Source: Bacteroidaceae bacterium (lineage in GTDB: Bacteria; Bacteroidota; Bacteroidia; Bacteroidales; Bacteroidaceae). From it: a DNA stretch of 53,397 nt. Numbering within the stretch: the first letter of the stretch is position 1; each line of letters starts with the position of its first letter. Under the pieces are notes generated by a model that saw nothing but the letters and a program-made list of their open reading frames with translations, ran no database searches and had not been told where the DNA came from. This document shows, piece after piece, positions 24,903 through 53,397 of this stretch. Both the position numbers and the translations under genes were made by a program. Where the stretch lies: positions 1-53,397 of the forward strand of contig JAFSKK010000016.1 in the NCBI GenBank assembly GCA_017448965.1, given 5' to 3'.

Positions 24903-25517
24903 TTATTGCAATCCGAAGAGTATCTTCAAACCACCATCAACACCACTGAAACCCATGAAGGCCATAGCGAGCAGGGATGCCGTGATGAGGGCGATAGGAA
25001 CGCCACGGAAAGGCTTGGGTACATCGACGAGATCAAGTTGTTCGCGGAGTCCTGCAAAGAGCACCATGGCAAGGAGGAAACCGATGCCTGTGGCCAATGC
25101 GAAGATGATGCCTTGAAGCAAATCATAGTCTTTCTGGATGACGAGGATAGCAACACCCAAGATACAGCAGTTGGTGGTGATGAGGGGAAGGAATACGCCC
25201 AGTGCCTGATAGAGAGCGGGCATGGTCTTCTTGAGGATAATCTCTATCATCTGCACCAACGCAGCAATGACGAGGATGAATGCAATGGTCTGGAGATATT
25301 CGAGACCAAAGACATTCAGCACGTAGGTCTGAATGAGATAGGTAACGATGGTTGCAACGACAAGAACAGCAGTCACAGCCATACCCATGCCCGATGCAGT
25401 GTCCACCTTCTTCGACACACCTAAGAACGGACAGATGCCGAGGAATTGTGCCAAGACAACGTTGTTGACGAAGATGGCAACGATGATAATCAGAACGAGA
25501 TTCAATACATAATCCAT
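24903..25517 (-). CDS. rnfA: Rnf complex membrane subunit RnfA
   Basis: The 204-residue protein has six hydrophobic segments. NNVVLAQFLGICPFLGVSKK and LITTNCCILGVAIL contain the cysteines that hold the membrane [2Fe-2S] site shared with RnfE. Rnf couples electron transfer between ferredoxin and NAD+ to Na+ or H+ movement across the inner membrane. It is the last gene of the operon and is followed by a strong terminator. Confidence 0.96.
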   Translation of the reverse strand: MDYVLNLVLIIIVAIFVNNVVLAQFLGICPFLGVSKKVDTASGMGMAVTAVLVVATIVTYLIQTYVLNVFGLEYLQTIAFILVIAALVQMIEIILKKTMPALYQALGVFLPLITTNCCILGVAILVIQKDYDLLQGIIFALATGIGFLLAMVLFAGLREQLDLVDVPKPFRGVPIALITASLLAMAFMGFSGVDGGLKILFGLQ

Positions 25518-25525
25518 AGTGGTGA

Positions 25526-25666
25526 TTTACTATTTGTCGATTTACTATTTACTATTTATTTTTCGATTTGAGCAATTTAATGATTTTCTGTCCGAATGGC
25601 TAATAGCTCAATCATTCAATGACCCAATCAATCGTAAATCGTAAATTGTAAAATCGTAAATTATTA
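25526..25666. repeat. Intergenic AATCGTAAATTGT-family repeats between rnfE and rnfA
   Basis: Near 25526-25566 GATTTACTATTTACTATTTA-type repeats occur, and near 25627-25662 their inverse AATCGTAAATCGTAAATTGT. Together they can fold as long imperfect hairpins. The same words recur at 3783-3812, 26262-26390 and 28073-28212. Confidence 0.6.
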
Positions 25667-26261: not shown

Positions 26262-26390
26262 ATTTACTATTTGACGATTTACTATTTACTATTTATTTAC
26301 GATTTTGCCGACTTTATGATTTCATTGGCTTGCATCCTTGCTTTTGTCGTGACAATCGTAAATCGTAAATTGTAAAATCGTAAATTCAAC
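26262..26390. repeat. Intergenic repeats between rnfG and rnfE
   Basis: The segment has GACGATTTACTATTTACTAT near 26273 and AATCGTAAATCGTAAATTGT near 26356, in inverted orientation, as in the rnfE-rnfA gap. Confidence 0.6.
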
Positions 26391-28072: not shown

Positions 28073-28212
28073 TATTTACTATTTGACAATTTACGATTTA
28101 CTATTTGATTGTCCGACTGTATGATTTAACGATTTTCTACCAGCATGGCAAATAGCCCAATCACTAAAATGCCTAATCAATCGTAAATAGTAAATCGTGA
28201 AATCGTAAATGA
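28073..28212. repeat. Intergenic repeats between rnfC and rnfD
   Basis: TTTACTATTTGACAATTTACGATTTACTAT-like words near 28075 and AATCGTAAATAGTAAATCGT near 28180 repeat the pattern of the other rnf gaps. Confidence 0.6.
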
Positions 28213-35591: not shown

Positions 35592-35642
35592 CCCAGCCTT
35601 TCCTCCTCTCATCGTTTAGTTTCTTTTTAATCTCCTAGCCTC

Positions 35643-35772
35643 CTAGAAATCCCTAGGAGTTCTTAGGAGTTCCTAGGTTTGCCTAGGAGTGCCTAGAAAT
35701 GCCTAGAAATGCCTAGGAGTGCCTAGGTTTTCCTATAAACTCCTAAATTTTCCTACCCCTCCCTAAATAATT
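35643..35772. repeat. CCTAG decamer array, 13 units, exact 10-bp period
   Basis: CCTA-type cores start every 10 bp from 35643 to 35763. Nine of the 13 units carry CCTAG or CTTAG, and the best copies read CCTAGGAGTG or CCTAGAAATG. Units decay toward the four-helix-bundle gene (CCTATAAACT, CCTAAATTTT, CCTACCCCTC). The last unit supplies that gene's TAG stop codon at 35763-35765. A further CCTAG at 35635 is out of register. Confidence 0.92.
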
Positions 35773-36413
35773 CCCAGCCTCTTTTTCAAATCCTCATTCT
35801 CTGCTTTCAGCCTCCTGTTCTCTTCCTCTAAAGCCCTCAACCTCGCATCCACCTCCTGCCGATACCCTGTCCTTGCAGCATGCATCCGCTCCTTGATTCC
35901 TCCCTCTGTCACAAAGCGATGCTCCAGTTTCTCGATATAAGCACACATCAACTTGTCCGTCTGATGGCAGAGCGTAAGAGCCAGATTCGCCATCTCCTCA
36001 TCATTCATCTTTGCCACAAAAGGAGCATAGGCACTATAATCATTGTGCGAGTGGCAAAATTCACGAAGTTTCTTCTGACGCTCGCTGCCAGCATCCCACA
36101 CCGAAAGGTGGTTCGTGTTCAGATAGTCGTGGTAGTCAGCACGAAGTTCCTGCAAACTTCCTCGTGCTACATTCATCAGCTTGATTTCCATCTCCGAACT
36201 TGTCTGTCCATCCTCGCTTCCCTCCACAATATTCTGCTTCCCACTACGAGCCGCCTGTATCATCTGATCCACTGTTCTGTCACCATGAGGAGGAAGGAAA
36301 CGCCTACAAAACTCCACCGTCAACTGATAAATGGCATCGCTTTTCTGATAGAAGTACAAATCCTTCCACACCACCGCCTTCTTCAACACCTTCCCCTTCG
36401 TGTTATATTCCAT
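35763..36413 (-). CDS. Four-helix-bundle protein with suffix domain (S23/IVP-like family)
   Basis: The 216-residue protein has the four-helix-bundle opening WKDLYFYQKSDAIYQLTVEF, DQMIQAARSGKQNIVEGSED and RGSLQELRADYHDYL. The Bacteroidetes suffix region TEGGIKERMHAARTGYR follows near residue 170, and a coiled coil RLRALEEENRRLKAENEDLK ends it. Relatives include 23S rRNA intervening-sequence proteins and Avd of diversity-generating retroelements; function is generally unknown, with nucleic-acid binding suspected. No reverse transcriptase is nearby. Both ends of the gene abut 10-bp CCTAG arrays. Confidence 0.82.
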   Translation of the reverse strand: MEYNTKGKVLKKAVVWKDLYFYQKSDAIYQLTVEFCRRFLPPHGDRTVDQMIQAARSGKQNIVEGSEDGQTSSEMEIKLMNVARGSLQELRADYHDYLNTNHLSVWDAGSERQKKLREFCHSHNDYSAYAPFVAKMNDEEMANLALTLCHQTDKLMCAYIEKLEHRFVTEGGIKERMHAARTGYRQEVDARLRALEEENRRLKAENEDLKKRLGII

Positions 36414-36459
36414 ATCGTTCTTGTTTTTTTAGTTGTTCTTTTTTAGTTGTTTCTCTCAT

Positions 36460-36529
36460 CCTAGGAACGCCTAGGCTTTCCCAGGCAATCCTATATTCTC
36501 CTAGGTTTTCCCAGGATTTCCTATAACTA
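36460..36529. repeat. CCTAGG decamer array, 7 units, exact 10-bp period
   Basis: Cores start at 36460, 36470, 36480, 36490, 36500, 36510 and 36520: CCTAGG three times, CCCAGG twice, CCTATA twice. It lies 46 bp upstream of the four-helix-bundle ATG and mirrors the array past that gene's stop. Confidence 0.9.
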
Positions 36530-36609
36530 CACCTTTTCTACCCAGGCCTCAATCATACAATTTCCATCAGAGGTTGCCACTCCTTACCAAGAGTATGGCA
36601 ACTCAAAAG

Positions 36610-36617
36610 CAAAAGTA
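36610..36617 (-). promoter_or_regulatory. Possible -7 promoter box (TACTTTTG) for the four-helix-bundle gene
   Basis: The minus strand reads TACTTTTG, about 195 bp upstream of the ATG at 36413. If used, the 36460-36529 array would lie in the 5' leader of the transcript. Confidence 0.4.
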
Positions 36618-36682
36618 CACATTATTTTATTAACAGCAAAAAATGAGGACTTTTTTTCTTGCCTGTGGGTAGTGTAAGTCGA

Positions 36683-36758
36683 ACGCCGTTGCCTCTTTGA
36701 GCTTTACGGCGTGAAGCCCATGAGGGTAACGACGTAAAGCCCGTGGGTCTAACGACGT
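36683..36758. repeat. 23-bp array of ACGNCGT palindromes, four units
   Basis: ACGCCGT, ACGGCGT, ACGACGT and ACGACGT start at 36683, 36706, 36729 and 36752, exactly 23 bp apart. The spacers of units 2 and 3 are alike (GAAGCCCATGAGGGTA and AAAGCCCGTGGGTCTA). Confidence 0.85.
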
Positions 36759-44253: not shown

Positions 44254-45231
44254 TTAGATGGAGAGTTCGTCCAACACCTTGATGAGTCTCTTGTTCAGCA
44301 CTTTCTCCGAATGAACGGCTTCCGTGAAGGGCACATACACCACTTGATCGTTTTGAATGCCGATCATCACATTGCGCTGTCCTGCAAGAATGGCGTCGAT
44401 GGCTCCTGCACCCAAACGACTGGCCAAGATACGGTCACGAGCCGATGGCGAACCGCCACGCTGCAGGTGTCCGAGGATGGACACACGCACATCATACTGA
44501 GGATATTCCTTCTTGACACGCTCAGCGTAGTACATGGCACCACACTTAGGACTCTCGCTCACGATGACGATGCTCGAGTTCTTGCTCTTTCTGATGCCTC
44601 GACCAATGAAGTGTTCCAACTGGTCGGCATCCGTATCGTCTTCCGGAATGATGGCAGCCTCTGCACCGCAAGCAATGGCACTGTTCTGTGCCAAGAAGCC
44701 AGCATCACGCCCCATCACTTCCACGAAGAAGATGCGCTCGTGTGAGTTGGCCGTGTCGCGAATCTTATCCACACACTCCATGATGGTGTTGAGCGTCGTG
44801 TCATAGCCGATGGTCAAATCTGTGCCATAGAGGTCGTTGTCAATCGTTCCAGGCAAGCCGATGCAAGGCACATCATATTCTTCCCCGAAAACACGGGCAC
44901 CCGTGAGGGAGCCATTACCACCGATCACCACCAACGCATCAATTCCTTCACGCTGCATGGTCTCATAGGCCTGCTTACGTCCTTCGGGCGTCATGAACGC
45001 CTTGCTGCGAGCACTCTTGAGAATCGTGCCACCACGGGAGATGATGTTACTCACACTTTCCGTCGTGAACTCTTTCACATCGCCATTCACCAATCCATCG
45101 AATCCACGATAGATACCCTTCACTGAGAAGCCATTGCAAATGGCCGAACGGGTCACGGCACGAATGGCCGCATTCATACCTGGCGAATCACCGCCCGATG
45201 TCAATATTCCTATACAATTGATTCTTGCCAT
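44254..45231 (-). CDS. pfkA: 6-phosphofructokinase
   Basis: The 325-residue protein has [19 protein letters not shown] at the N-terminus, [16 protein letters not shown] near residue 100, [20 protein letters not shown] with the catalytic aspartates near 128, EVMGRDAG near 170 and [15 protein letters not shown] near 245. It makes fructose 1,6-bisphosphate from fructose 6-phosphate. The usual GGDGS reads GGNGS here. It lies 10 bp upstream of miaA and probably shares its transcript. Confidence 0.95.
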
Positions 45232-45384
45232 ATGATTATATTATTAAAATTTCTGAAGTTATCGCTTCGCTCAGAAGTTAAAGACGAATGTTGTGCTATT
45301 GACATAGTATCGGCTCTAACTTCTTTAACTTCTCTAACTTCTTTAACTCCAAACAAGTGAGCTTGCGAAACTTTTATTATATTA

Positions 45385-46804: not shown

Positions 46805-46897
46805 CAATTGAAAAAACGAAGAATTGAAAAATTGAATTTCTCCGACAAACCACATGGTCACTTCAATTGTTCAATTTTTCAATTCTTCAATTTTTGA
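46805..46897. repeat. Long AT-rich inverted repeat downstream of the tRNA gene
   Basis: GAAGAATTGAAAAATTGAA (46818-46836) pairs exactly with 46870-46888, and pairing extends imperfectly outward. The 33-nt loop is GC-richer. It could act as the 3' end of the minus-strand tRNA transcript. Confidence 0.7.
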
Positions 46898-46899
46898 TT

Positions 46900-46975
46900 T
46901 GGAGCGGTAGACGGGACTCGAACCCGCGACCCTCGGCTTGGGAAGCCAATGCTCTACCAACTGAGCCACTACCGC
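46900..46975 (-). tRNA. tRNA-Gly (anticodon CCC)
   Basis: The minus strand folds as a full cloverleaf: acceptor GCGGTAG/CTACCGC, D arm GCTCAGTTGGTAGAGC, anticodon stem TTGGC/GCCGA with loop TTCCCAA, and T arm GCGGGTTCGAGTCCCGT. Anticodon CCC reads GGG glycine codons. The 3' CCA is encoded after discriminator T (46900-46902). It stands alone, with a -7 box just upstream. Confidence 0.95.
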
Positions 46976-48513: not shown

Positions 48514-48518
48514 ATTGA

Positions 48519-48655
48519 AAATTTCTGTGATTTCTGTGTTTTCTGTGTGAGATAAAAGAGAGCCATGCGGGCTCTCGCAGAAAGAAAAATATTATTTCAC
48601 ACAGAAAACACAGAAAGCACAGAACCTTTAGCTCGACGGAGTCAAAGCACAGAAA
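48519..48655. repeat. Dispersed TTTCTGTG/CACAGAAA element with GAGAGCC hairpin
   Basis: Runs of TTTCTGTG, then GAGAGCCATGCGGGCTCTC (a hairpin), then CACAGAAA words in inverse order, so the whole element is an imperfect palindrome. It also carries the word TTTAGCTCGACGGAGTCAA. Related copies lie at 49796-49929, 50684-50716, 51141-51180 and 53056-53397. Confidence 0.8.
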
Positions 48656-52980: not shown

Positions 52981-53055
52981 GTCGTTAGTTAAACATTCGT
53001 TTTTGAATCACATATCTATCATTTGGCCATCTGATATTCCTAATCTCTCTCTTCT

Positions 53056-53397
53056 TTCTGTGATTTCCGTGTTTTCTGTGTGAAATAAATCTCTTTCTGC
53101 GAGAGCCCGCATGGCTCTCTTTCATCTCACACAGAAAACACAGAAATTCACAGAAATTTTCAATTTTCATTTTTTTTCTCTCTCTTTTTTCTGTGTTTTC
53201 TGTGATTTCTGTGTGAAATAAATCTCTTTCTGCGAGAGCCCGCATGGCTCTCTTTCATCTCACACAGAAAGCACAGAAATTCACAGAAATTTTCAATTTT
53301 CATTTTTTTCTCTCTCTTTTTTCTGTGTTTTCTGTGATTTCTGTGTGAAATAAATCTCTTTCTGCGAGAGCCCGCATGGCTCTCTTTCATCTCACAC
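53056..53397. repeat. Tandem 133-bp repeat, two and a half copies, running off the window
   Basis: GTGTGAAATAAATCTCTTTC starts at 53078, 53211 and 53343, giving periods of 133 and 132 bp. Each copy contains TTTCTGTG words, the GCGAGAGCCCGCATGGCTCTC hairpin, CACAGAAA words and a TTTTCTCTCTC tract. The third copy is cut by the window end. Open frames here only reflect the repeat. Confidence 0.88.

Follow-up and report, generated by a model that had tools for sequence, protein, structure and literature searches.

A four-helix-bundle gene and the short-period repeat arrays that bracket it are present or absent as a unit, with a repeat core specific to the gene lineage

The DNA analysed here (the window) is a 53,397-nucleotide stretch of a Bacteroidaceae contig. 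It carries a gene for a four-helix-bundle protein between two arrays of short tandem repeats, and the resulting unit is bordered on both sides by ORFs encoding proteins. The unit comprises the following features:

35634..35771, no strand: downstream array of 13 decamers, core CCTAGG with a spacer of 4
35763..36413, minus strand: gene for a four-helix-bundle suffix-domain protein of 216 aa (TIGR04258 / TIGR02436)
36460..36529, no strand: upstream array of 7 decamers in exact register
36530..36690, minus strand: leader region of the unit, based on comparison with L131, L132, L134, L135, L137 and L138, its outer borders inferred rather than mapped base by base

On the plus strand, the 13 units 3′ of the gene start at 35642, 35652 and so on to 35762, exactly 10 bp apart, with one CCTAG out of register ahead of them at 35634; the seven units 5′ of the gene start at 36460 to 36520. 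An earlier note on this DNA had described both arrays in this register, and their number and spacing can be read directly in the sequence. Its CCTA core holds for 12 of the 13 downstream units and five of the seven upstream ones, the exceptions being CTTA (at 35662) and CCCA (two units). One array does supply the stop codon, as the note had said: TAG on the minus strand (35763–35765) is part of the unit at 35762. The exact register is far above chance, since CCTAGN5CCTAG occurs 10 times in the window, with 0.01 matches expected and one in the best of 100 shuffles. CTAG is scarce in the window as a whole, with 16 sites against a shuffle mean of 99.7, and 12 of the 16 are inside the two arrays, the density that had been called striking. 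TRF also detects both arrays, and in a scan for short-period arrays over 453 kb of the window's genome (G000; 3.0 Mb, 86% complete) the downstream array scored 52 at period 10. Elsewhere in G000, CCTAGN5CCTAG occurs at three places only, on contigs C24, C54 and C67, and its reversed pattern was found nowhere in that genome. Neighbouring repeat units are frequently identical, so local duplication clearly happens.

The window protein scores 75.7 bits against TIGR04258 over residues 138–186 (cut-off 40), 34.2 bits against TIGR02436 (cut-off 24), and 33.6 against PF05635 23S_rRNA_IVP, slightly below the gathering score of 33.8. These two four-helix families are the only NCBIfam entries whose cut-offs it reaches, and no Pfam family reaches its own. 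The AlphaFold2 model is a four-helix bundle with a mean pLDDT of 90.6, and its nearest folds are 2gsc and 2rld, then Avd, in agreement with the proposed kinship to rRNA-intervening-sequence proteins and Avd. Family and fold comparison recognised no catalytic domain in the protein, whether transposase, nuclease or other. A PADLOC defence search matched neither the window protein nor its Nostoc homologue, and gave a single weak DrmA match (E 0.0045) for a third protein. Searched with the window protein, phages yielded no match and plasmids one record.

Arrays of this kind lie beside most homologues. TIGR04258 was detected in 44 of 150 relatives. In the flanks of 52 scorable TIGR04258 genes (of 70 loci, six had no full-length gene, and among the 64 left the motif positions of 12 were not located), repeat periods peaked at 9 and 10 and at the doubles 18 and 20. 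A minor downstream peak at 21 (6/52) is probably coiled-coil coding, other periods gave stray matches only, and shuffled flanks reached the threshold at no period. Among 80 named loci, mostly from Bacteroidota MAGs and four of them dropped, an array was present in 65 of the 76 scorable, on both sides of the gene in 27 and on one side in the rest, compared with 10 of 351 random windows of the same loci. Taking the genome-search and related-locus sets together, which overlap and whose counts are not independent, 120 of 144 TIGR04258 loci have a short-period array by the gene, mostly of 9 or 10 bp, and 24 have none at a threshold of 14.

The core differs from gene to gene (CCTAGG/10, CTATAG/9, CTAG types/8–10, ATGGG/9, TCCGGA/9, CTTAAG/9, GAGGAC/10 and others, with the period in bp), and within arrays the cores are conserved and the spacers variable. 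In 36 of 48 TIGR04258 units the two arrays are in direct orientation. The repeat core is specific to the gene lineage and tracks protein phylogeny. In a FastTree phylogeny built from 116 rows (108 of them distinct; 24 rows without an array were left out, as were L035, L153, L200 and L074), the core label changes 18 times, against a mean of 68.7 and a minimum of 59 for shuffled labels. CCTAGG/10 corresponds to one clade of 23 rows, one of which, L156, is labelled CTAG/9. Linkage without recognition could also produce such concordance.

Some TIGR04258 proteins have features of their own. A subfamily (L088, L089, L090, L092) carries, by eye, a C-terminal zinc-ribbon-like CPKCG...C motif. In five others (L044, L045, L056, L060, L079) the C-terminal tail is apparently translated from the flanking array, giving short repeats of low complexity (e.g. 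NGRNGNYG), and at L042 (G137:C14) a 9-bp TCTGAC-like repeat lies in mid-coding sequence, as if an array had entered.

TIGR02436 genes without the suffix, meant as a negative control, turned out to be flanked by arrays as well, mostly of period 7 and frequently with complementary sides, for example TAAGTTTT and AAAACTTA at L377 and GTTTAGA and CTCTAAA at L386. An array scoring at least 12 was present at all 28 scored genes and in 21 of 144 matched control pairs (8 of 36 loci went unscored in this main set, as did 9 of 30 in an earlier set of named loci). The 28 units divide into 16 inverted, 3 direct and 9 neither. An out-of-sample plasmid search with one TIGR02436 protein gave 24 records, 22 of them cyanobacterial, one from Gemmatirosa and one from Azospirillum; they are partly near-identical (L469/L475; L477/L478), gene ends were set by hand in a few (L472, L480, L483), and some contain a broken gene. 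Every one of the 24 has an array exceeding 60 shuffles, 20 score at least 12 on both sides, and arrays occur in 4 of 48 control windows. Sixteen of these units are inverted, two are direct and six were assigned to neither class; the unit of Nostoc edaphicum, for instance, is laid out as (AGTAGGG)n gene (TACTCCC)n. Relatives with this arrangement belong to several bacterial phyla. Plasmid units also lie inside cas6–cas4 and cmr2–cmr3. A survey of 2013 had reported genes of this kind at cas loci, one position being that between cmr3 and cmr2, and its accessible part leaves repeats unmentioned (PMC3936711).

The Anabaena sp. 90 plasmid pANA02 (L484, positions 43491 and 44265–44633) has a four-helix unit between cas6 and cas4, and also a DGR avd gene. 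The heptamer of that unit recurs on the plasmid at a separate gene-less place (permuted maximum 1), as an array between cas4 and cas1d. Twelve arrays, nine of them of period 7, were found in a 50-kb stretch of Nostoc edaphicum; the unit of the four-helix gene of that stretch lies at 4 places, which is no significant excess over a permuted maximum of 4. The one DGR avd gene examined has flank scores of 7 and 13, and the 13 is enough for that flank to pass the threshold of 12.

A self-contained unit of gene and arrays had been suggested from the window alone, and a comparison with empty sites bears this out: the gene is linked to its arrays, and units are present or absent as wholes. (The names GH57, NAGK, ilvC, SusC/D, ychF, lgt, parA, glycosyltransferase and hsdM/S/R are presumptive, assigned by reading the translations rather than by a family search.) At six homologous sites (G026, G006, G003, G016, G025 and G002), the four-helix gene and the arrays are absent together, and the leader region (36530..36690) is gone with them. 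There, the GH57-like gene is followed directly by a convergent kinase-like (NAGK) gene. The window unit stands at this junction in G000 and G036, and the unit that G019 carries immediately 3′ of this GH57-like gene differs in its core, which is of the ATGGG type. In the hsdR set, where 8 of 30 loci were not oriented, a four-helix gene lies between hsdS and hsdR in 6 of the 22 oriented loci, all six with arrays. Of the gene-free oriented sites, 15 of 16 are without an array of period 8–10, and at the sixteenth (G041, L270) there is an inverted 10-bp pair, short and of different sequence. The sister genomes G000 and G036 were compared with seven gene units and two gene-less arrays as queries. 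All six resolved TIGR02436 units are present in one genome and absent in the other; for G000:C40b (TIGR04258) only one flank was found, and a search of G000 for an orthologue of the gene-less array at G036 C51 found none. Not all units move fast, because three that were not among the queries are common to both genomes (the window's, C2/C28 and C13/C62). When a recurrent neighbour was sought in the 80 loci, type I R-M genes alone emerged, in 16.

Arrays also occur away from any such gene. In 43 stretches around gene-less arrays, no gene of the family was found within about 1.2 kb. Forty-two of these arrays were relocated. The genes on either side are co-directional at 29 of them, convergent at 6 and divergent at 3; another 2 have a single neighbour, and the last 2 fall inside a predicted ORF. 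A stop codon lies within 50 nt of 31 of the 42. Array sites common to several species are found at ychF–lgt, parA and SusC–SusD, and reading of the sequences at the C24 site revealed arrays of different cores across species and none in others. The gene-less CCTAGG array at G000 C67 splits an ATGA in which the stop of one glycosyltransferase-like gene overlaps the start of another. Ten of the 14 relatives compared have the two genes joined directly at this site, with a single TCAT, and in G000 TCAT stands on both sides, making the array a clean insertion. The other four relatives have unrelated sequence there, and in G041 this is a 36-bp insert that also lies between two TCAT. The 4-bp end repeat is a candidate target duplication seen at one array, on an ATGA overlap where selection to keep both overlapping genes would by itself call for it.

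Scanning the 453 kb of G000 at periods 6–13 gave 34 arrays, 23 of them intergenic and all 23 of period 7–10, and several unrelated repeat types are present in this one genome. The GGAGTTAAA type, to which the four-helix gene at G000:C7 belongs, was found at 13 places, against a permuted-unit mean of 0.07 and maximum of 2. These places make up about 8 elements, and assembly may inflate the count, as three of the elements are situated at contig ends. Also above all permuted controls were TTCAATTC (4), AAGTGAA (4) and TAAAGTT (7), the four-helix gene of the last type being known only in G036. CCTAGG, at three places of which two are the window unit, was not above its controls in this census, and ATGGG, ATTTACT, TTAAATG and TCCGGA showed no excess either. 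The GGAGTTAAA, TTCAATTC and TAAAGTT types are dispersed in G000 partly as inverted pairs around a short core, and for five GGAGTTAAA elements the folding energy is −52 to −69 kcal/mol (RNA parameters); of the window's CCTAGG type, the dispersed copies seen were all single arrays. Derivation of gene-less elements from the gene-bearing unit was significant in one repeat type, marginal in another and not significant in a third. A simple deletion origin of the GGAGTTAAA hairpins was not significant, and CCGCATGG, which had looked like an inner motif common to the types, was not retained as such, having 30 matches in the 453 kb, several in apparent coding DNA.

The window itself contains further arrays. 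A gene-less TTCAATTC hairpin of 8-bp repeats, with inverted arrays around a short core, lies at 46806–46910 next to a stretch that looks tRNA-like by eye; the same unit stands beside the four-helix gene at G000:C40, where TTCAATTC/GAATTGAA arrays of 8 bp occur at several gene boundaries in a cluster that includes a four-helix gene (L398, G000:C40:65800–69200). A GGAGTTAAA/TTTAACTCC-like 9-bp array, of the G000:C7 type, lies at 45307–45348. ATTTACT arrays of 7 bp occupy 25510–25554, 26262–26295 and 28074–28210, the last as an inverted pair, and this unit is also found near a four-helix gene at G000:C72. Hairpin-like elements at 48517–48610 and 53044–53397 consist of CACAGAAA-type repeats around GAGAGCCCGCATGGCTCTC, with tandem copies at the contig end.

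We then asked how far gene type and array type match across genomes. Gene types were assigned from the genes' own arrays, so any association with linked arrays is partly circular and only unlinked arrays are informative. The genomes compared are related MAGs, 55–99% complete and many of them incomplete, and the p values are accordingly rough. Among genus genomes, 5 of the 7 that carry a CCTAGG-type gene also have unlinked CCTAGG arrays, as do 5 of the 38 in which no such gene was detected (p 0.0035); setting aside a G011 array 4 kb from the gene brings the first figure to 4 of 7 (p 0.022). For unlinked CTATAG arrays the difference (3/6 vs 7/39, p 0.11) is not significant. Counting linked arrays too, with the circularity this brings, gives 6/7 vs 5/38 for CCTAGG and 6/6 vs 7/39 for CTATAG. 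Of 45 genomes, 27 have ATGGG arrays. The correspondence between dispersed arrays and genes is moderate. Taken strictly, the co-occurrence that the earlier note proposed to check is contradicted by the CCTAGG arrays of those 5 of 38 genomes without a detected matching gene (7 of 39 for CTATAG), and the 24 arrayless loci among the 144 are the converse case.

On balance, we lean towards a mobile repeat system of the REPIN/RAYT kind, built on a four-helix-bundle protein and not on a transposase. The window unit would belong to a large class of mobile elements, each a four-helix gene bracketed by two short-repeat arrays with a period of 7–10 bp and a lineage-specific core. Gene-less derivatives, either single arrays or hairpin-forming inverted pairs around a short core, would lie scattered in intergenic DNA. 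The protein would recognise its own repeat, and the form recognised would most likely be a folded or paired strand of DNA or RNA. This recognition would promote the copying of elements with and without the gene into further intergenic locations, frequently close to a stop codon, similar to the role that RAYT proteins are believed to play for REPINs. The conserved core with variable spacers, the distribution of cores by protein clade and the dispersed arrays argue for recognition, and we infer that the protein binds the repeat and acts in trans. As no catalytic domain was recognised, the cutting and joining (or reverse-transcription) chemistry would presumably be borrowed from another protein. 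A regulatory role, or one at the RNA level like that of intervening sequences, is possible and need not exclude mobility.

The four-helix protein might alternatively be an RNA- or DNA-binding regulator, its own arrays autoregulatory and the dispersed ones its targets, acting through translation coupling, mRNA stability or termination, with arrays spread by their usefulness. The prevalence of gene-less arrays between co-directional genes and close to stop codons fits such a regulon, as do the sites common to species at ychF–lgt, parA and SusC–SusD. The accessible parts of the literature also contain a proposal of a post-transcriptional role for TAACTGA heptamers (MacGregor 2015, PMC4679880) and a suspicion that STRRs stabilise transcripts (PMC2670836). 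However, the gene and its arrays appear and disappear jointly at many unrelated loci, where type I R-M is the sole common neighbour, a single intergenic site can hold different cores or none across species, and several unrelated repeat types share a genome. We regard a regulon as rather unlikely.

It is improbable, in our judgement, that the units act mainly as intervening sequences in RNA, where complementary arrays would pair in the transcript, the protein would bind the stem, and the stem-loop would be processed out or tolerated as in 23S rRNA, mobility being a rare by-product. TIGR02436 is a family of such intervening-sequence proteins, and the fold is that of Avd, which sits in an RNA–protein complex (8ub8). 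The inverted complementary arms (16 of 28 TIGR02436 and 16 of 24 plasmid units) and the location of units within the operons hsdS–hsdR, cas6–cas4 and cmr2–cmr3 would also be expected of it. In TIGR04258 units, however, the arms mostly repeat a palindrome in direct orientation (the 36 of 48) and their spacers are unrelated, so only about 6 of every 9–10 bases could pair, and for gene-less single arrays a stem is impossible.

Nor do we favour the absence of any functional link, with slippage-prone intergenic arrays serving as landing places and the gene inserting nearby or recruiting slippage. The often identical adjacent units, and the local duplication they reveal, accord with this, but the empty sites are arrayless (all six GH57-like sites and 15 of 16 gene-free hsd sites), cores are conserved as spacers vary and follow protein clade, and arrays accompany the gene in 24 of 24 plasmid records; we hold it to be very improbable. 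Least credible is the earlier note's idea of a bending or polymerising protein with its sites on one helix face, which suits the exact 10-bp register of the window but fails because related genes have periods of 7, 8, 9 or 10 bp, and 7 or 8 bp keeps no helix face.

Viewed as a mobile repeat system, the units resemble REPIN–RAYT, as described in the accessible part of Bertels and Rainey (2011, PMC3116915), in having a gene beside its own repeat type, several types per genome, a match between gene and repeat, and, for some repeat types, dispersed intergenic inverted pairs that fold into hairpins. As with a RAYT gene, the window gene is flanked by its own repeats. They differ in that the RAYT is a Y1 tyrosine transposase, whereas the protein here is a four-helix bundle without a recognised catalytic domain, no Y1 (HUH) transposase being among the families whose cut-offs the window protein reaches. 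Here, moreover, the repeats form tandem arrays of 7–10 bp units, and the gene itself is present or absent at many sites. Inverted arms, comparable to the terminal inverted repeats of classical transposons and MITEs, are found in many TIGR02436 units but not in most TIGR04258 units. The ends of 23S rRNA intervening sequences are complementary. They share with our units a protein family (PF05635, TIGR02436, 'S23'), to which the window protein belongs by its TIGR02436 score and four-helix fold, and an ORF inside complementary ends. In contrast, the units described here lie between protein genes, their ends are short-period arrays, and gene-less derivatives are dispersed; the window unit is not located in a 23S rRNA gene, its empty sites being intergenic regions between the same two ORFs. 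The BrickBuilt MITE of Porphyromonas gingivalis is likewise intergenic in a member of the Bacteroidota, contains tandem repeats and may have duplicated 4 bp of its target, but according to the accessible part of its description (PMC4596501) its repeat is 23 nt long, it has separate terminal inverted repeats, and it is thought to use a surrogate transposase.

Dispersed intergenic direct repeats, mostly of 7 bp and of unexplained function, have been described as cyanobacterial STRRs (PMC2670836), which are hairpin-capable, as TAACTGA arrays (PMC4679880) and as GGGAATC heptamers in Xanthomonas and Nostoc (PMC4692102); the accessible parts of these three papers mention no tie to a four-helix-bundle gene. 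In the same portions, the 2009 paper gave the function of STRRs as still not known (PMC2670836), and the 2015 paper found no transfer mechanism evident for heptamer arrays (PMC4679880). Our literature search, covering open full text and few subscription journals, found no paper that ties such arrays to the four-helix gene family, and a class of mobile DNA made of a four-helix protein and 7–10 bp repeats is undescribed in the literature searched. The four-helix family may be the missing partner of these unexplained heptamers (STRRs, TAACTGA arrays). More tentatively, and with the odds in our view against it, we can picture a phylum-spanning class of mobile DNA in which a small four-helix protein lacking a transposase domain propagates itself and gene-less arrays or hairpins of its 7–10 bp repeat, lineage and core coevolving as a recognition code that can be read, with STRRs, TAACTGA arrays and similar repeats as its footprints and 23S rRNA intervening sequences as units that landed in rRNA genes. 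Tandem repeats of 7–10 bp are scattered between the genes of many bacteria without a known protein partner, and if the four-helix family is that partner, the gene–repeat pair becomes testable at the bench. If true, this would give a function to the common annotation 'S23 / four helix bundle protein', suggest an origin for the intervening sequences of 23S rRNA, and provide a natural set of protein–repeat pairs whose specificity could be read from sequence.
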